From assembly GCA_026702745.1 (NCBI GenBank), contig JAPPBT010000021.1, positions 1-45,298 of the forward strand: 45,298 nt of DNA, given 5' to 3'. The stretch's first letter is position 1. Each line of letters opens with the position of its first letter. Source of the stretch: Gemmatimonadota bacterium (GTDB taxonomy: Bacteria; JAAXHH01). The notes below the pieces were generated by a model. The model saw only the letters and a list, made by a program, of their open reading frames with translations, was not told the DNA's origin and searched no databases. Of this stretch, positions 327 to 9,328 are shown piece after piece. A program made the position numbers and the translations under genes.

Positions 327-657
327 GCCTTGCACGCCTTTCCGAAACCCCTGTTCCTCCCTCGCGAAACGATCCTGAACCGGTTACGGGAACGATCCCC
401 GTTAAACCTACACAATGTAGATTTATCAAGGGCTTACGTCAATAGTTTTATTGGCGGACACAGGCGGGTGGAACGGAGTTTCATGCACGGTGGCATCCTG
501 TTGCGACGGGGCAAATTACGACTTGATTCCTGACCGGTTCTGGTTATTGTAAGATACGGATTCATATTACGGCGTATCGATCCAAAATCACGGCTCAGTT
601 ACAGGTGCGCGTTGACTCAAAACGTATACTGTGTCTGCACCCCGACCTAAGGTAAAT
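327..657. other. Divergent intergenic region between HNH gene and mod
   Basis: This stretch of about 330 bases has no convincing gene. It holds the minus-strand promoter for the HNH gene (414-442). In front of mod there is a -10-like TATACT at 625-630, but without a good -35 at the right distance; the TTGACT at 612-617 is only 7 bases away. The mod ribosome binding site is AAGG at 649-652. Confidence 0.5.
414..442 (-). promoter_or_regulatory. Predicted sigma70-type promoter of the HNH gene
   Basis: Read on the minus strand, TTGACG (442-437) is followed after 17 bases by TACATT (419-414). The -35 matches 5 of 6 and the -10 matches 4 of 6 consensus bases. The distance to the HNH start leaves a leader of about 80 bases. 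Confidence 0.45.
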
Positions 658-3600
658 ATGTCTGACTCAATCAGTAAATTTCAAACACTACTAAGAGAAC
701 TGTTTCAGTTCGACTGCGCTGATCTAGATTTCGGCATCTACCGTATCATGAATCACAAGAGAGATGAGATCGAACGGTTTATCACGGTGGATCTGCCAGT
801 TAATGTCAAAGAGGAATTGAATCGTGGAGCACTAGCCGAGCAAGCTCAAGCAGCAGCTGAACTAGAAGAAACCGCACAGCAGATCAGAACCACTTTGACA
901 CAGGACGCGATTGACGCCGATGGAAATCTGGTCAAATTTCAGGACGCGGATATCGGTAAAAGGTACCTCGAGCTAAGGGAGAAGGCACATGGCGGTGGCA
1001 ACCGGGATGCTCTCGAATCAGTAGTCTTCAATCACCTATATGCCTTCTTCAGTCGCTACTACCAGGAAGGCGATTTCATCTCAAAGCCCCGCTACTCCAA
1101 GCGCCACCGATACGCGATTCCCTACAACGGCGAAGAGGTCCATTTACACTGGGCCAATAAGGACCAGTATTACGTTAAGACCGGCGAAAACTTCCGAGAT
1201 TACTCGTTTCAAGTACGCGATGTAACCGTGCATTTCAAACTTCAAGCGGCCGACGTGGAGCAGGACAACGTCAAGGGTGACAAGAGGTTTTTCTTTCCCA
1301 GCAACGTGGAACCAACCTGGGACGGAAACAACAGACGGCTCCAGATTGGTTTTGAATTCCGTCCGCTTACCGCGCAGGAGGAAATCACCTACAGCAAAAG
1401 AAACCAGCAGGATGCTATTCTCGCCGAAGCAGTTGAAAAGATACCTGGTCGGCTTGAACAGGCCCCCGCTGCATTGAGTGCACTAATGACAGAGAGACGT
1501 GAAAACGGGGATAGCAAGCCGGTAACTGTCCTTGAACACCACTTGAAGCAGTATACCCGCCGCAACACCTCGGACTTCTTCATCCACAAGGATCTCAAGG
1601 GATTTCTCGACAACGAACTCGATTTCTATCTCAAGAACGAAGTACTGATCCTCGACGAAGTAGAGACGGGTGGAGAAGAACGTGCTGAAGGATGGTTTCA
1701 GATAATGAGGATGATCCGTTCTGTAGGCCGTCAGATAATCGAATTCCTGAATCAGATCGAGAATTTCCAGAAATTGCTTTGGGAAAAGCGCAAGTTCATC
1801 ACTGAAACGCAGTATTGTATATCGGTCGGACATGTTGACCAATGTTTCTATGAAGAAGTCTCTAAATGCGAGGCGCAGTGGGAGGAATGGAAAACGCTGG
1901 CCCTTCTCGATATCGGCGAAAATCACACGGACCTGTTTAATCTGACCAATGACTATGTAGGTAAACGTGTAGAGTTCCTGCAGAATCGCCCGACGCTTCC
2001 TCTCGATACGAAGCACTTCGACGAGGACTTTGTCGATCGCCTGTTAGGCAGTTTCGAGGATCTGGACGGCATGACGGGCGGGCTGTTGATCCACGGCGAG
2101 AACTGGCAGGCGTTGAATCAGTTGTCAAGAATGTACATGGGTCAGTTTAAATGTGTGCATATAGATCCGCCATACAACACACAGACAAGCGGGTTTCTCT
2201 ACAAAAACGGATACCAGCATTCGAGTTGGCTTGCTATGATGCAAAATCGTATCGCTGCAACAGTCCCGTTACTTGCACAGGATGGTTCCTTCCTGTGCCA
2301 CATTGACGAGAACGAGTATGAACGACTGTACCTTATGGTGGACGGGTTTCCAATTAGAGATTCCGGTACAGTTGTGTGGGATAAGAGAAATCCCATGACA
2401 GGCGGTGGTGGTATCGCAATCCAACATGAATATGTTATCTGGAGATCCGATTCTACCGAAGCATTCAATCTTCGGAACCAGTCTGTCATTAGCATTTTAA
2501 ACAAAGCAAAGGAACTCGTATCACTGAATGGTGGACTTACGCCTGAATCCAAACGATCGTTTTCGAAGTGGGTAGTTAGTAACCCGGCACTTAGTGGTGG
2601 TGAAAGAGCCTACCGTTTTTTGGATGAAAATGGTCACGTGTTTCAAAGCGTTAGCCTTAGGGCACCCGAACCACGTCAAGATCCTAAATTCCATGTTCCA
2701 CTGATTCATCCGGTAACAGGCCAGCCATGTCCCGTCCCTCCGAATGGTTTCTCACGTACTCCTGAAACTCTTCAGCGTATGATCGAGAAGGGAGAGATCA
2801 TTTTTGGTAGTGACCACACAACCCAACCGAGGCAGAAACGTTTTTTGACGGAAGACTCAAGAAGGCAATTCACGTCCATCATTCAAGACGCTACTCGTGG
2901 CAAATTGGATTTGAAAAACTTAAACTTGGAGGATTTTCCCTATTGCCATTCGGTGCGTTTCTACGAGGGCTTGTTAGCAGCGGCTACACCTGAAAACGAT
3001 AGCGCTGTCCTTGATTATTTTGCAGGCTCGGGAACTACTGGTCACGCAGTCATAAATCTTAACAGAGAAGACGGTGGCCAGCGTACGTTTATCCTTGTCG
3101 AGATGGGCGATCACTTCGACACAGTGCTACTGCCACGCATTAAAAAAGTAACGTTCACGCCAGAGTGGAAGGACGGTAAGCCGAAACGCATGGCAACACA
3201 GGAAGAAGCAAATCGTAGCCCGAGCATTATAAAGTACATGCGATTGGAATCCTATGAGGACGCGCTGAACAACATCGACTTCGCCGAGAGATCCGGACAG
3301 AATGCCCTACAATTCAACGACTACCTGCTTAAGTACATGCTCCGATGGGAAACGAAACACTGTTCGACCCTCCTGAACGTCGAGAATCTAACCCAGCCTT
3401 TCAACTATACGCTCAATTTCCACGTAGACGGTCAGATCCGGCAGCGAATCGCCGACATTCCGGAGACGTTCAACTACCTGATCGGTCTGCGCGTTGATAC
3501 CCGTCGAGTGTACAACAGCGATGATCGGCGATACTTGGTTTATCGAGGTCAGATTGAGCAGCGGCGAGTTGTCGTTATCTGGAGAGAAACCCAGCATTGG

Positions 3601-3759
3601 AACAATGCCGATCTGACACGCGATAAGGCGTTTGTAGACGAACTTAGACTGGCAGAGGGTGCGGATGAGGTCTATGTGAACGGTGATTCCCTTATCCGAG
3701 AAGCAAATGCACTGGAGCCGGAGTTCAAGCGCAGGATGTTCGCAGGCGCTCAGATGTAA
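658..3759 (+). CDS. mod: Type III-like DNA adenine methyltransferase (Mod subunit)
   Basis: Predicted 1033-aa site-specific N6-adenine methyltransferase. Catalytic motif IV is DPPY at residues 503-506. The SAM-binding motif I, DYFAGSGTT, is at 786-794. The order IV before I, with the target-recognition region between, marks a beta-class enzyme. A long N-terminal domain of about 480 residues has no motif I can name; it begins with a DFGIYRIMNHKR segment that I associate with large Mod-type methyltransferases. I chose ATG 658 because AAGG sits 5 bases upstream; a GTG at 631 would add nine residues. The partner helicase-nuclease is at 5383-8526. The unusual point is that four small genes of HEPN/nucleotidyltransferase type separate them. 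G+C is clearly lower than in the genes from 8537 on, as expected for a transferred island. Confidence 0.88.
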   Translation: MSDSISKFQTLLRELFQFDCADLDFGIYRIMNHKRDEIERFITVDLPVNVKEELNRGALAEQAQAAAELEETAQQIRTTLTQDAIDADGNLVKFQDADIGKRYLELREKAHGGGNRDALESVVFNHLYAFFSRYYQEGDFISKPRYSKRHRYAIPYNGEEVHLHWANKDQYYVKTGENFRDYSFQVRDVTVHFKLQAADVEQDNVKGDKRFFFPSNVEPTWDGNNRRLQIGFEFRPLTAQEEITYSKRNQQDAILAEAVEKIPGRLEQAPAALSALMTERRENGDSKPVTVLEHHLKQYTRRNTSDFFIHKDLKGFLDNELDFYLKNEVLILDEVETGGEERAEGWFQIMRMIRSVGRQIIEFLNQIENFQKLLWEKRKFITETQYCISVGHVDQCFYEEVSKCEAQWEEWKTLALLDIGENHTDLFNLTNDYVGKRVEFLQNRPTLPLDTKHFDEDFVDRLLGSFEDLDGMTGGLLIHGENWQALNQLSRMYMGQFKCVHIDPPYNTQTSGFLYKNGYQHSSWLAMMQNRIAATVPLLAQDGSFLCHIDENEYERLYLMVDGFPIRDSGTVVWDKRNPMTGGGGIAIQHEYVIWRSDSTEAFNLRNQSVISILNKAKELVSLNGGLTPESKRSFSKWVVSNPALSGGERAYRFLDENGHVFQSVSLRAPEPRQDPKFHVPLIHPVTGQPCPVPPNGFSRTPETLQRMIEKGEIIFGSDHTTQPRQKRFLTEDSRRQFTSIIQDATRGKLDLKNLNLEDFPYCHSVRFYEGLLAAATPENDSAVLDYFAGSGTTGHAVINLNREDGGQRTFILVEMGDHFDTVLLPRIKKVTFTPEWKDGKPKRMATQEEANRSPSIIKYMRLESYEDALNNIDFAERSGQNALQFNDYLLKYMLRWETKHCSTLLNVENLTQPFNYTLNFHVDGQIRQRIADIPETFNYLIGLRVDTRRVYNSDDRRYLVYRGQIEQRRVVVIWRETQHWNNADLTRDKAFVDELRLAEGADEVYVNGDSLIREANALEPEFKRRMFAGAQM

Positions 3760-3773
3760 AATGGATTCTTTTT

Positions 3774-3811
3774 GATACTGAAGTATTCTGGGATTCTGAC
3801 CTTCAGGTATC
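3774..3811 (+). other. Imperfect inverted repeat between mod and the first MNT gene
   Basis: GATACTGAAG at 3774-3783 pairs with CTTCAGGTATC at 3801-3811, with one bulged G and a 17-base loop. It lies 14 bases after the mod stop and 66 bases before the nucleotidyltransferase start. It has no U-tract, so it could be an RNA structure or protein site that sets the toxin-antitoxin genes apart from mod rather than a strong terminator. Confidence 0.35.
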
Positions 3812-3877
3812 TTGAGATGTGGTTAGGTGGTTCTTGTCCAGTCTGACCTTATCCGGGCTTTTGTAAGGAGTTCTGTT

Positions 3878-4210
3878 ATGGATAATGCCTTTAAACAAGC
3901 AACTCCTATAGTAATCAAGAAGTTGGTGCGAAATGTGGTGAAATGTGTAGATCCTATACGGATTATTCTCTTTGGCTCAGCGGCCAGAGGAGACATGGAA
4001 GCGCATAGCGACCTGGATCTACTCGTCGTTATGCCCGAGGGCGTTCATCGGCGAAGAACGGCGCAGAAACTCTATAGGGAAATTACCGGGCTAGGTGTGC
4101 CATTCGACATTGTCGTTGCAACACCGAATGATCTAGAAAAGCACAGACAGAATGTAGGTTTGATCTACAAAAACGCATTGGAGGAGGGTAAGGAGATATA
4201 TGGCCGTTGA
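3878..4210 (+). CDS. MNT-type nucleotidyltransferase, antitoxin-like (pair 1)
   Basis: A 110-aa minimal nucleotidyltransferase. The fold signature GS-x10-DxD is complete: G33 S34 and D45-x-D47. In HEPN/MNT modules such proteins usually act as antitoxins, some by transferring AMP to the HEPN partner. ATG 3878 is the clear start, with AAGGAG at 3865-3870, 7 bases upstream; an upstream GTG at 3827 lacks such a site. The 3' end overlaps the next gene by 11 bases, typical of translationally coupled partners. All apparent catalytic residues are present, unlike in the second pair at 4735. Confidence 0.88.
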   Translation: MDNAFKQATPIVIKKLVRNVVKCVDPIRIILFGSAARGDMEAHSDLDLLVVMPEGVHRRRTAQKLYREITGLGVPFDIVVATPNDLEKHRQNVGLIYKNALEEGKEIYGR

Positions 4211-4604
4211 CTCTTCCTCTCCAGGCAGTGCCAAAGACTGGCTTCGTCATGCGCGCAGCGACCTGGAACTTGCCTGCATAGACCAGCCGGAAGGCGTCTT
4301 GCTGGAAACCCTCTGTTTCCATGCTCAACAAGCCACGGAGAAAGCCCTGAAGGCCGTTTTTGTGTTTCTTGAAACAGATTTCCCTCGAACGCACAATATA
4401 CGAACATTGCTGGATCTGTTATCGAATCACATCGGCATTCCTCAAGTAGTAGATGCAAGCGCGGGACTTACCGACTATGCCGTTGAATCCCGCTATCCCA
4501 TGAATACCGAACCCGTCGACGAAGAAGAATACCAGCATGCAATCGGTCTCGCCAAATTGGTGGTGCATTGGGCCGAAACATTGATTTGCGAAAACATACG
4601 GTGA
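4200..4604 (+). CDS. HEPN-domain protein, toxin-like (pair 1)
   Basis: A 134-aa HEPN protein of the COG2250 type. Recognisable parts are W-L-x-H-A-x-x-D-L near the N-terminus, the core CFHAQQATEKALKA helix, the P-R-T-H-N-I turn and a late YAVESRYP segment. It overlaps the nucleotidyltransferase gene upstream, and AGGAG lies just before the ATG. HEPN proteins of such pairs are often RNases held in check by the partner. I cannot point to a canonical R-x4-6-H motif here, so nuclease activity is not shown by the sequence. It is followed by a 130-base gap before the second pair. Confidence 0.85.
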   Translation: MAVDSSSPGSAKDWLRHARSDLELACIDQPEGVLLETLCFHAQQATEKALKAVFVFLETDFPRTHNIRTLLDLLSNHIGIPQVVDASAGLTDYAVESRYPMNTEPVDEEEYQHAIGLAKLVVHWAETLICENIR

Positions 4605-4734
4605 GTGGCCATGGTGTTTTGATCGTCTTGGCGTTCATCGTGGACGGTTTACATAGCGGGTTATTGCAAATACCAGCAAATCGAAGTATCGAAACAAGCT
4701 TCTACTAGGTAGTCTTCCCAGAGACAATTCTATC

Positions 4735-5052
4735 TTGGATTTTTACTCGTGTACCTCAAAGCGCAAGATTGCCGAATTCTGTCAGCGCAATCGCATCAAG
4801 CGACTCGCCTTAATCGAATCTATACAACGCGACGCTATCACGCTTGAAAGCGACTTGGACGTACTAGTCGCCTTCGAATCGGATGTCCGTATTGGATACA
4901 TCGGACTGGCCGGTTTAGAGATCGAGCTAATGGAATTGCTCGGGTGGAAGACTGACATTCACACACTAGAGGGAGTAGAAAGAAGCCGCAACTGGTTGCT
5001 TCGCAAGATAATACTCGGTTCGGCGGAGACGGTATATGAGCAGACGAGATGA
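4735..5052 (+). CDS. mntA: MntA-like nucleotidyltransferase with altered active site (pair 2)
   Basis: A 105-aa protein of the COG1669/MntA type. KIAEFC and RIKRLAL match the family N-terminus, SDLDVLVAFE holds the metal-binding D40-x-D42, and LLGWKTDIHTL matches the C-terminal VDLVT region. The signature is usually FGS-x10-DxD, but here residues 27-29 read I-E-S, so the loop glycine is a glutamate. This glycine lies in the nucleotide-binding loop, so activity is probably reduced or lost. The start is uncertain: TTG 4735 is the only usual start codon in a sensible place and has only a weak AGAGA upstream. It overlaps the next gene by 17 bases, the usual antitoxin-toxin layout. Confidence 0.75.
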   Translation: MDFYSCTSKRKIAEFCQRNRIKRLALIESIQRDAITLESDLDVLVAFESDVRIGYIGLAGLEIELMELLGWKTDIHTLEGVERSRNWLLRKIILGSAETVYEQTR

Positions 5053-5383
5053 TCAATTAGCCTTGGTAAAGATGCGGAACCACGCTGCGGAAGCGATAGC
5101 TATACTCGGTGAGTCTAGTTTGAATGATCTCGAAGAAAACCGTGTCACTGAACTTGGATTGTGGAAACTGTTGGAGATTATTGGCGAAGCGGCCAACCGC
5201 ATTTCTGCAGAGACGCAACGACTCCATCAAGAGGTTCCCTGGCCTCAGATCATGGCAATGGGTAACCGAATGGTATACGGCTACGACGACATCAGTCTTG
5301 AAAGATTGTGGGACACAACAAAGTGGGAACTACCGCCACTCGTGAAGCAACTAGATCTCCTTATCGACAAAGAGAATCTATAA
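5036..5383 (+). CDS. hepT: HepT-like (DUF86) HEPN protein lacking the R-x4-H motif (pair 2)
   Basis: A 115-aa protein matching the HepT/DUF86 pattern: ELGLWKLLEIIGEAANRIS, then VPWPQI, then the active-site helix, then a DISLERLWDTT tail. In HepT the active site is R-N-x-x-x-H-x-Y. Here residues 76-83 read G-N-R-M-V-Y-G-Y, so the catalytic Arg is Gly76 and the His is Tyr81, while the last Tyr (Y83, the position AMPylated in studied HepT) remains. RNase activity is therefore doubtful. GGAG at 5025-5028 supports the ATG at 5036. Its stop overlaps the start of the helicase gene (taATG), so it is coupled to Res. Confidence 0.82.
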   Translation: MSRRDDQLALVKMRNHAAEAIAILGESSLNDLEENRVTELGLWKLLEIIGEAANRISAETQRLHQEVPWPQIMAMGNRMVYGYDDISLERLWDTTKWELPPLVKQLDLLIDKENL

Positions 5384-8300
5384 TGCCTTCCGAACAGCAT
5401 ACCAGCCTAGACCGGCGTCTGGTCCTGTTGGCGTGGTTGAATCGCCAGTTCGGATACGAGCAGAACCGCGATCTACTGGTAGATATGAGAGAAGCGGATG
5501 AAGGATTTGACGCCTACGGTCACAGTTCAATCTACCATCGATTGATCAGCCGTGGTGACAAGATAAAGATCCCTCCTGAAATACTCGCCAAATACGACAA
5601 GAACATCCATAAACACCTTATGGCTATGAACGCGCTACGTTCTGAGCCCATAGTCTTGAGATACTTCCAACACTTGGCGGCGTGGTATACGGAGTATGCT
5701 CTTGACAGTTACTTCAACAGACCGGGGCAAACTGTGAGTGCTCTGAACGACTTCGCCAGAGCGCACAATGCACATACTTCGAACCAGATCGCATTCTCAA
5801 AGTCCGATCTGCGCAAGTTGGCTTTCTGGATGGCGACCGGAAGTGGAAAGACGCTTATAATGCACCTCAACTACCGGCAGTTTCTCCACTACAATGATCA
5901 GCAGTTAGACAACATTCTTCTGATAACGCCTAACGAGGGGTTGAGCACACAGCACATTGAAGAAATGACGGCGTCGAACATCCCCTGCCGACGCTTCGAA
6001 CGTCACGGGGACAGCCTGATGTCATCCACCCGCGAGGCGGTCCAGGTCATAGAGATCACCAAACTGACGGAGCAGAAACGTGGCGGTGGAGTAAGCGTCC
6101 CAGTAGAGGCATTCGAAGGCAACAACCTGATTTTCGTTGACGAAGGGCACAAGGGATCCGGTGGTGAGGCTTGGAGGAGAGTACGAGAGGAATTGGGAAA
6201 GACAGGTTACACGTTCGAGTACAGTGCGACGTTCGGCCAGGCGCTATCATCTGCTGGTAATGACGCGCTGACTATAGAATACGGCAAGGCGATCGCCTTC
6301 GACTATTCGTATAGGTACTTTCACGGCGATGGTTACGGGAAAGATTTTCGGGTACTCAATTTGAACGAGGAAACGACATCCGAGTATACCGATCTGCTGT
6401 TACTGGGAAATCTGCTTTCTTTTTACGAACAGCAATGCTTGTTCGAAGCGCGAACCGAAGCGTTACGTACCTACGGACTGGAACGTCCTCTCTCATTGTT
6501 TATAGGTAGAAAGGTAAATGATGTTTACAACCAGAGTGGGGAAAAGCAGAGTGACGTGTTGACTGTAGCTCGTTTCCTGCATTGCGTCCTGAGCAAGCCG
6601 GACTGGGCTGCAGAGGCAATCGGCAGACTCCTCGAAGGAGAGACCGGTCTTTGCACGCCTCATGGACAGGACGTATTTGGCGATCAATTTGGGTATCTTC
6701 GTGCAATGAATCAGAATCCCCAAGAGATATACCGGGATCTGCTCACCTGTGTGTTCCACGCCCCGACATCTGGTGGACTGCATCTATGTGCAATACGCGG
6801 TTCAGACGGTGAAATCGGTCTGAAGGCAAGCACCGCAGATACCTATTTCGGGTTGATCTATATTGGCGACTCTACCGCGTTTAGAAACCTGGCGGGATCA
6901 GATGATTCCGGCATTGTGGTAGAGGAAGATGCGCTTACCGGTGGGTTATTCAACGATATCAATAGCCAAGGCACCACGATCAACGTCCTCATCGGTGCTA
7001 AAAGGTTTATCGAGGGTTGGGATTCCTACAGGGTATCCAATATGGGACTACTAAACGTCGGTAAAAGCGAAGGATCGGAAATCATCCAACTTTTTGGACG
7101 TGGCGTTCGCCTTCGGGGCAAAGACCGTTCCCTTAAAAGGAGTGCCTCTTTAAGTGGCGTCCATCCTGACCGGATCGAACTGCTCGAGACGCTGAATATA
7201 TATGCTGTTAGGGCAAATTACATGGCTCAGTTCCAAGTGTACTTGAATCGAGAAGGTATCGACACCGAAGGATACATCGATCTACCACTTACCATACGTT
7301 CCGAGTCGGATCTCTCAAATATGGGTCTTCTGATCCCCCGCATACCAGCGGATACCGATTTCGCTCGGGAGGAGGATCTTGCACTGACCCCGGATCATAC
7401 GGTACAGGTCCGGGTGGATGTAAGCACAAGGGTTCAGACTCTCGAAAGCGGTGTTGAAGGTGTTGAGACAACCGTCGTCCAGGCAGGCACGGAGACGATC
7501 CTCACCGATGACCTTTTGGAGCTGATCGATTGGGAAAGAGTGTATATCGAACTGCTCGAGTACAAACATTCGAAGGATTTGAAAAACCTGTACATACAGC
7601 CGTCCCTGCTACGGTCCATAATATCGGATAATCTGCATTTCACACTTATAGCAGACGACGACCTGGTCCATCCGAAATCCTTTGAAGAAGTAGCACGCCT
7701 TCAGGAAGTAGTGACTACGATACTGCGCCGTTACGTAGACGCATTCTACCGATCCAGGCAGAGAGCTTGGGAATCGAACCGGATGATTTACAAAATACTG
7801 GACGAACATGACCCCAATCTGCGCTTTAACCATCTCTACTCTTCTGACGGGAAGGGACAATACATCGTTAGTGTCCGGCGGTCCGAAGACTCAATGATCG
7901 AAGAGATTGAAAACCTCATTTCTGGCAACGATCGGATATATCAGGAAGAATCGGCCGAATTACCCCGCCTTCACTTCGACAGGCATCTCTATCAACCATT
8001 GCTGATAGAGCAGAATGAAAAGGTTAAAAGTACACCTCCGGCATTAACAAAAAGTGAGCGAGCATTTGTCACCGATCTGAAAGAATACTGGGTGAGCGAA
8101 AAGGACAAATCCCTGCTGGAAGTCGAGGTTTTTCTTCTGAGGAATCTCAGCCGCGGGACTGGCGTTGGTTTCTTCGAATCGAGCGGATTCTATCCCGATT
8201 TCATCCTCTGGATCAAGGAAACGGGTAAACAACACATCGTATTTATCGAGCCTCACGGTATGATCCACGCAGAAGCATACGAACACGACGAGAAAGCACA

Positions 8301-8526
8301 ACTTCATGTGAGATTACCGGATATGGCCAAGAAGATCGGTGAGAGAAGTGGACGCGACGACATTACGCTTGACTCGTACGTCATTTCGGCAACGCGTTTC
8401 CAAGACCTTCGCAAGAGGTATAGCGACGGAACTTGGGATATGGAAAGATTCGCAGAAGCCCACATACTCTTCGCCGAGCAGTACAACTACTTAAGTCAGA
8501 TTTTCGAAGCTCAACTTTCAACCTGA
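5383..8526 (+). CDS. res: Type III-like restriction subunit (Res): SF2 helicase with nuclease-like C-terminus
   Basis: A 1047-aa superfamily 2 helicase. Walker A ATGSGKT is at 151-157, the DEAH-box position reads DEGH at 253-256, motif III SAT is at 281-283, and the motif VI region QLFGRGVRLRG is at 569-579. The first 145 residues form an extra domain of unknown role. Near the C-terminus a PD-(D/E)xK-like block is visible: D939 in YPDFILW, then E956-P-H958-G, so the lysine usual for this nuclease fold is a histidine. ATG 5383 overlaps the previous stop by one base and has AAAGAGA 7 bases upstream; an in-frame ATG at 5308 inside the preceding gene is unlikely. It forms a restriction pair with mod at 658, and mazG starts 10 bases after its end. 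Confidence 0.85.
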   Translation: MPSEQHTSLDRRLVLLAWLNRQFGYEQNRDLLVDMREADEGFDAYGHSSIYHRLISRGDKIKIPPEILAKYDKNIHKHLMAMNALRSEPIVLRYFQHLAAWYTEYALDSYFNRPGQTVSALNDFARAHNAHTSNQIAFSKSDLRKLAFWMATGSGKTLIMHLNYRQFLHYNDQQLDNILLITPNEGLSTQHIEEMTASNIPCRRFERHGDSLMSSTREAVQVIEITKLTEQKRGGGVSVPVEAFEGNNLIFVDEGHKGSGGEAWRRVREELGKTGYTFEYSATFGQALSSAGNDALTIEYGKAIAFDYSYRYFHGDGYGKDFRVLNLNEETTSEYTDLLLLGNLLSFYEQQCLFEARTEALRTYGLERPLSLFIGRKVNDVYNQSGEKQSDVLTVARFLHCVLSKPDWAAEAIGRLLEGETGLCTPHGQDVFGDQFGYLRAMNQNPQEIYRDLLTCVFHAPTSGGLHLCAIRGSDGEIGLKASTADTYFGLIYIGDSTAFRNLAGSDDSGIVVEEDALTGGLFNDINSQGTTINVLIGAKRFIEGWDSYRVSNMGLLNVGKSEGSEIIQLFGRGVRLRGKDRSLKRSASLSGVHPDRIELLETLNIYAVRANYMAQFQVYLNREGIDTEGYIDLPLTIRSESDLSNMGLLIPRIPADTDFAREEDLALTPDHTVQVRVDVSTRVQTLESGVEGVETTVVQAGTETILTDDLLELIDWERVYIELLEYKHSKDLKNLYIQPSLLRSIISDNLHFTLIADDDLVHPKSFEEVARLQEVVTTILRRYVDAFYRSRQRAWESNRMIYKILDEHDPNLRFNHLYSSDGKGQYIVSVRRSEDSMIEEIENLISGNDRIYQEESAELPRLHFDRHLYQPLLIEQNEKVKSTPPALTKSERAFVTDLKEYWVSEKDKSLLEVEVFLLRNLSRGTGVGFFESSGFYPDFILWIKETGKQHIVFIEPHGMIHAEAYEHDEKAQLHVRLPDMAKKIGERSGRDDITLDSYVISATRFQDLRKRYSDGTWDMERFAEAHILFAEQYNYLSQIFEAQLST

Positions 8527-8536
8527 CACAACCCCT

Positions 8537-9328
8537 ATGACCCCCTTCGAAGAACTCGTGGACATCATGGCGAAACTCCGGTCGAAGGGAGGCTGTCCCT
8601 GGGACCGGGAACAGACCCACCAGACCCTGCGGCCGTACCTTATCGAGGAGGCCTACGAGGTGCTGGACGCGCTGGACAACGGCGAGGACGGCGACTTCCG
8701 GGACGAACTGGGTGACCTGCTACTCCAGGTGGTCTTCCACGCGCAAATCGCTACCGAGGAGCAGCGGTTCGACATCCACGATGTGGCCCGGGCGATCAAC
8801 AACAAGCTCGTCCGGCGCCATCCCCACGTTTTCGGGGACATCCGGGCGGACACGGCCGACGAGGTGCTGACCAACTGGGAGAAGATCAAACAGGAGGAGA
8901 AGGGGAACGAAGGACCCGGGTCGGTACTCGACGGCCTCCCGGCGGGCATGCCGGCCTTGCTCCGCGCCTACCGCATCCAGGAGAAGGTCGCCCGGGTCAA
9001 CTTCGACTGGGACGACGTTAAAGCGGTGCTCGAAAAGGTCGGCGAGGAAATCGGCGAGGTGCGACGCGCCCTGGAGCACGGGGACCGGTCGAAGATCGAG
9101 GAGGAGATGGGCGACCTGCTGTTCTCCCTGGTGAACCTTTCCCGCCACCTCAACGTGCCGCCGGAGGATGCCCTGAGAAGGAGCAACGACAAGTTCATCC
9201 GCCGTTTCCGGTATATCGAGGCCGCCCTCGAACTCAAAGGAGAAAGCCTGGAAAAGGCCACCTTCGAGGAACTGGACGCCCTGTGGGACGAGGCCAAGCA
9301 AAGGGAGTCGGATGGCGACGCCGGATGA
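8537..9328 (+). CDS. mazG: MazG nucleoside triphosphate pyrophosphohydrolase
   Basis: A 263-aa, full-length double-domain MazG that hydrolyses (d)NTPs to monophosphates and pyrophosphate. The N-terminal domain has GGCPWDREQTHQTL, the EEAYEV helix and DELGDLLLQVVFHA, giving the ExxE and ExxD metal sites. A second copy of the motif is EEIGEVRRAL with EEEMGDLLFSLVN in the C-terminal half. It marks a sharp change to high G+C compared with the upstream restriction genes, so it probably belongs to the core chromosome although it follows Res by only 10 bases. No strong ribosome binding site is visible. Its end overlaps the next gene by 17 bases. Confidence 0.95.
   Translation: MTPFEELVDIMAKLRSKGGCPWDREQTHQTLRPYLIEEAYEVLDALDNGEDGDFRDELGDLLLQVVFHAQIATEEQRFDIHDVARAINNKLVRRHPHVFGDIRADTADEVLTNWEKIKQEEKGNEGPGSVLDGLPAGMPALLRAYRIQEKVARVNFDWDDVKAVLEKVGEEIGEVRRALEHGDRSKIEEEMGDLLFSLVNLSRHLNVPPEDALRRSNDKFIRRFRYIEAALELKGESLEKATFEELDALWDEAKQRESDGDAG

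Follow-up and report, generated by a model that had tools for sequence, protein, structure and literature searches.

The MntA/HepT-type toxin-antitoxin pair at positions 4,735 to 5,383 of the window, the 45,298-nucleotide stretch of a Gemmatimonadota genome analysed here, has lost catalytic residues in both partners, and its homologues in the same operon context and at the same chromosomal site have kept them. The findings presented here suggest that this pair, cargo of a type III-like restriction-modification island, is probably disarmed and decaying, the toxin having been inactivated first and the frame kept open by the downstream Res gene. The relevant features are the following:

631..3759, + strand: Mod, an intact type III-like N6/N4 DNA methyltransferase with DPPY and FAGSGTT (0 of 125 conserved columns broken)
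3878..4210, + strand: MNT1, nucleotidyltransferase antitoxin of a Class II pair, with GSx10DxD intact and a dN/dS of 0.085 between the window and G001
4200..4604, + strand: HEPN1, PF05168 HEPN toxin of the Class II pair, with a dN/dS of 0.17 between the window and G001
4605..4764, + strand: leader, start codon and first ten codons of MNT2, without homology to the relatives' leaders (homology runs from 4765)
4735..5052, + strand: MNT2, MntA-type antitoxin without a catalytic G-loop (FGS replaced by I27-E28-S29 at 4813-4821; D40, D42 and D74 kept)
5036..5383, + strand: HepT (PF01934), with R replaced by G76 (5261-5263) and H by Y81 (5276-5278), and Y83 kept
5381..5385, + strand: TAATG junction, in which the stop of HepT overlaps the start of Res; G003, G006 and G008 have retained it
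5383..8526, + strand: Res, a type III-like restriction helicase/nuclease with its motifs present (6 of 147 conserved columns changed)
8537..9328, + strand: mazG-like gene, present in all genus members, where it bounds the island on the right

The operon order is Mod, Class II pair, MNT2/HepT and Res. The restriction genes belong to the type III-like systems, Mod carrying DPPY and FxGxG and Res a Walker A motif and a helicase domain. The translation of MNT2 (...LALIESIQRDAITLESDLDVLV...) matched NTP_transf_2 (1e-7) and showed I27-E28-S29 where its relatives have F-G-S, as the earlier note had read. Its GSX10DXD motif therefore reads ESX10DXD, with the DxD aspartates D40 and D42, and all three acidic residues, still present. 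The translation of HepT (...AMGNRMVYGYDD...) matched the HepT-like family PF01934 (2e-15) and presented G76-N-R-M-V-Y81-G-Y83 in place of R-x4-H-x-Y, Y83 lying at 5282-5284. A profile alignment built on 39 homologues equated G76, Y81 and Y83 with the R, H and Y of RX4HXY in the solved Shewanella HepT (5yep/6m6u, 'GLRNIAVHDY'), which together with the translation confirmed the proposed loss of both Arg and His and the retention of the tyrosine. The two frames were also intact and overlapping, as had been claimed, sharing 17 nt and containing no internal stops. With a PF01934 toxin directly 3' of a PF01909 MNT and overlapping frames, the pair has the arrangement of Class I. It is extremely unlikely that these changes reflect a sequencing or assembly error or a misread frame. 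The assembly is a draft of 102 contigs, but the frames are intact, the motifs carry several multi-base codon changes without any indel, and both ORFs match Pfam.

The altered positions are near-invariant elsewhere. The motif glycine was kept in every readable case among 103 other MNT homologues (a stop masks it in L085), and the HepT arginine and histidine were each 99% conserved among 107 other homologues, which indicates that their loss is more than chance variation. Among the 103 MNT/HepT pairs compared, the window pair was the only one in which the motif glycine, R and H were all missing. The earlier note had proposed that the same IES and GNxxxYxY changes be sought in homologues next to Mod/Res genes. 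They were not found there, and a conserved variant clade was rejected since both occurred in no other homologue. A scan of viral contigs likewise found no relatives. The note had further reasoned that this copy would simply be degenerating if homologues in the same context kept FGS and R-x4-H-x-Y, and this is what we observed: both motifs were kept in L034 and L058, which have the order Mod-MNT-HepT-Res in two other lineages, and in six same-site pairs of the genus, two of them with a nonsense codon in HepT.

GS mutations abolish HepT modification in Shewanella and Legionella (PMC7641770, PMC11586414). The pair could still be active by altered chemistry, with HepT cutting RNA at a different site and MNT2 inhibiting it by binding, but we regard this as very unlikely. 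The RNase site of the Legionella HEPN, which has RX4HXY, has been proposed to be Q44/E47, with Mg2+, and not R/H (PMC11586414), so the loss of HepT toxicity is not certain; HEPN toxins without the motif can be toxic (PMC3710099), and the three acidic residues of MNT2 fit such activity. However, the near-complete conservation of R and H argues that they matter in this clade, and G28E affects the loop that binds the nucleotide, in which activity is abolished even by mild changes at GS (PMC7641770, PMC11586414).

The distribution of lesions points to the order in which the partners were lost. Motif and frame were intact in 91 of the 103 complete pairs, in nine the toxin alone carried a lesion (H to P in L089, otherwise a nonsense codon) and three had lesions in both partners (the window, L054 and L085), while no antitoxin lesion was found beside an intact toxin in any of the 103. 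This nesting of antitoxin lesions within toxin lesions had a p of about 0.001, in a count where the nonsense codon of G006 and G008 is a shared one, so that these two are not independent. Such a pattern should be expected of a poison-antidote pair, where the poison has to go first, and the counts suggest that the toxin lost its activity earlier and the antitoxin later. The earlier view that both had changed together thus holds in that both are altered in the window, but the changes appear toxin-first and not simultaneous. HepT genes interrupted by in-frame stops in their conserved core were common in draft genomes, mostly beside an intact MNT (L015, L017, L018, L021, L027, L077 and L085).

The note had described the pair as the second of two MntA/HepT pairs. 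The first pair (3878-4604) turned out to be a Class II HEPN/MNT pair (PF05168/PF01909), in which a PF05168 HEPN lies downstream of an MNT with GSX10DXD. It belongs to another HEPN family and is not a duplicate of the second pair; RX4HXY is absent from Class II by definition (PMC7641770). Judged from its sequence, the Class II pair looks functional, because GSx10DxD is intact and the dN/dS values between the window and G001 are low. Another PF05168 HEPN copy of the same genome (L164, G000:C46:54170-54457) carries two in-frame stops.

Downstream of the Class II pair, the native beginning of MNT2 is gone. Homology to the relatives starts only at codon 11 (nt 4765), with an abrupt break, which makes the TTG at 4735 a doubtful start. 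Comparisons of 4605..4764 with the relatives' leaders gave scores not above those of shuffles, whereas the control comparison of G008 with G010 scored 73 against a shuffle maximum of 29; the leader common to the other genus members is therefore missing upstream of MNT2. A one-base change of the relatives' ATG to this TTG was rejected, since the flanking 30 nt are not homologous. An N-terminal hxhP motif proved a weak family-wide sign of truncation, being found in only 46 of 104.

The gap between mod and res is a cargo slot in relatives of this restriction system, and it is closed in many of them. Elsewhere it held MNT/HepT (L034, L058), MNT/PF05168 (L194), HTH-IrrE with DUF4411 (L152), AbiEi/AbiEii (L193), an AAA protein (L196) or GmrSD (L198), so that each class of pair was found alone in the slot of other loci. 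In the plasmid Res relatives examined, mod and res were adjacent and no pair lay between them. The Res of the window presented six changes at near-invariant columns (L101W, F276Y, W371S, S521G, K541R and W549Y), against none or one in its nearest full-length relatives, and it may therefore be relaxing too. In its clade, the nuclease motif in the C-terminal third of Res reads PD...EPHG, compared with PD...DPKG in most other relatives; a loss of the catalytic Lys was rejected, as the nearest Res relatives also have EPHG.

We then compared the site across the genus. The HNH-mazG intergenic space (window 336-8537) is an island site that is filled differently from species to species. It was bounded by the HNH gene and mazG in nine members readable on both sides, the window included; G006 could be read only from the mazG side, and contig ends cut off G011 and G009. 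Among the genus members, only the window carried a complete island there, and island G+C was 47-50% versus 60-68% in the mazG-side flank. An intact MntA/HepT pair with canonical motifs stood alone at the site in G002, G003, G005 and G010. G006 and G008 kept FGS in MntA, but their HepT had a TAG at codon 61 and Res was absent. The closest relatives of the window pair were canonical MntA/HepT at the same locus, G006 and G008 sharing 61-68% identity with it. G001 had the Class II pair at 81-84% identity, followed by a piece of HepT with a frameshift, which scored 81 where shuffles reached at most 37, and then by the last 48 codons of Res. In G007 and G004 the site was empty. Res scraps lay beside the lone pairs, either as its last 34-63 nt before mazG (G002, G005, G008 and G010) or as the start scrap TAATGCCTTCC (G003, G006 and G008). 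In all, a HepT pair with Res scraps was seen in six species, the Class II pair accompanied by scraps of HepT and Res in one, and an empty site in two. The scraps indicate loss of the restriction genes, with one of the two pairs left behind. Pairs have outlasted Mod and Res in seven readable species.

Between the window and G008, dS was about 1-2 at the pair versus 0.15 at mazG, whereas between G006 and G008 it was 0.02-0.04 at the pair versus 0.18 at mazG. These opposite contrasts led us to reject vertical descent of the cassette within the genus and to conclude that cassettes are exchanged between species.

The dN/dS analysis that the note had called for gave a divided answer. Codon models estimated a window-branch omega of 0.16 for MNT2 and 0.40 for HepT over a background of about 0.2, figures that are limited by saturated synonymous sites and recombining cassettes. 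An omega of 1 was rejected for MNT2 (2dlnL 31) and for both genes together (25) but not for HepT (3.2), and neutral drift over the whole branch was accordingly rejected for MNT2 and the two genes combined, not for HepT. Since the models did not show neutrality for the window branch, relaxation, if there was any, must have been either recent or incomplete, and on this long saturated branch omega mostly records the time before the losses.

The damage was confined to the active sites, with two of 16 near-invariant columns broken in HepT (R76 and H81) and two of 13 in the MNT (F27 and G28). That only catalytic columns are broken speaks against decay, since random decay would scatter more. AlphaFold models reached a pLDDT of 91 for HepT and 85 for MNT2, weak evidence since homologue alignments feed the models. 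The best fold matches of the HepT model were crystallised HEPN toxins, including the mutants R102A and H107A/Y109F, with TM scores of 0.6-0.7 and weak E-values (0.03-0.1). By the R-x4-H-x-Y spacing, the mutated residues are the motif R, H and Y, that is, the two positions lost in the window plus the tyrosine.

It is nevertheless unlikely that the pair was refunctionalised, losing catalysis and keeping fold and complex for autorepression, as a decoy or anti-addiction partner of other HEPN/MNT, or for Res regulation. The retention of every other strongly conserved residue in both proteins, the low MNT2 omega and the confident models would fit this, as would the HEPN(R102A) toxin of 7ae6, which is di-AMPylated in the crystal and implies that a dead toxin can still be handled by its antitoxin. 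On the other hand, the residue combination is unique, the same context holds intact homologues elsewhere, the native start and leader of MNT2 are gone, and the equivalent pair was largely deleted in G001, where the Class II pair was kept. That a dead MntA/HepT is retained beside the live HEPN/MNT pair through selection on its fold, as a complex without enzymatic activity (repressor, decoy or Res regulator), is unlikely, though not negligibly so. A sensor role for the neighbouring pair found no direct support, and that pair is of a different class. Of the two outcomes originally offered, parallel decay or a new non-catalytic role, decay is better supported by the intact same-context homologues, amended to a toxin-first disarming of redundant cargo.

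Toxin-first decay could have proceeded as follows. The ancestor would have been an ordinary MntA/HepT in the mod-res slot, HepT acting as an RNase and MntA silencing it by AMPylating the motif tyrosine. An unrelated Class II HEPN/MNT pair would then have moved into the slot upstream of MNT2, whose native leader and first codons, we infer, were lost with this insertion. Given the additional pair and a probably reduced expression of MNT2, R76G and H81Y in HepT may have been tolerated or favoured; redundancy through the second, intact pair is the most likely cause of the loss. Once the toxin was dead, AMPylation would have been needless and MNT2 could have lost F27 and G28 (F27I, G28E). The frames would have stayed open mainly because, with the HepT stop overlapping the Res start, translation of Res would suffer from a nonsense or frameshift mutation, so that the TAATG overlap probably kept the frame open. 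The combination of a missing Res and a HepT nonsense codon in G006 and G008 is consistent with frame-holding by Res, but represents one event.

In gene order, overlap, PF01909/PF01934 domains, HEPN fold and motif tyrosine, the pair resembles the Class I HEPN/MNT or type VII systems (MntA/HepT, Shewanella SO_3165/SO_3166; Aphanizomenon HEPN-MNT), from which it differs in lacking the G of GSx10DxD and the R and H of RX4HXY. Chromosomal toxin-antitoxin loci are known to decay via inactive toxin mutants, and ccdO157 of E. coli similarly combines an inactivated toxin with slow loss of the module from a conserved site (PMC7167474); the window pair differs in lying in a restriction island, with catalytic substitutions and open frames. 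The association of HEPN genes with restriction operons is already known (PMC3710099), and the window shares with those systems the embedding of HEPN/MNT genes in the operon; what differs is that its mod-res slot contains a tandem of two distinct classes, of which one is apparently catalytically dead. This tandem, together with the set of decay states at one site, is new. In a coupled operon, a frame that stays open does not count as evidence that its protein is functional. The decay of the pair is of an ordinary kind, but its relatives show several stages at one site: the complete island, remnants consisting of a pair alone, a toxin with a nonsense codon, reciprocal loss of one pair, and an empty site. 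Altogether, this series suggests that such pairs persist longer than the restriction genes accompanying them, and that the toxin is disarmed earlier than the antitoxin.
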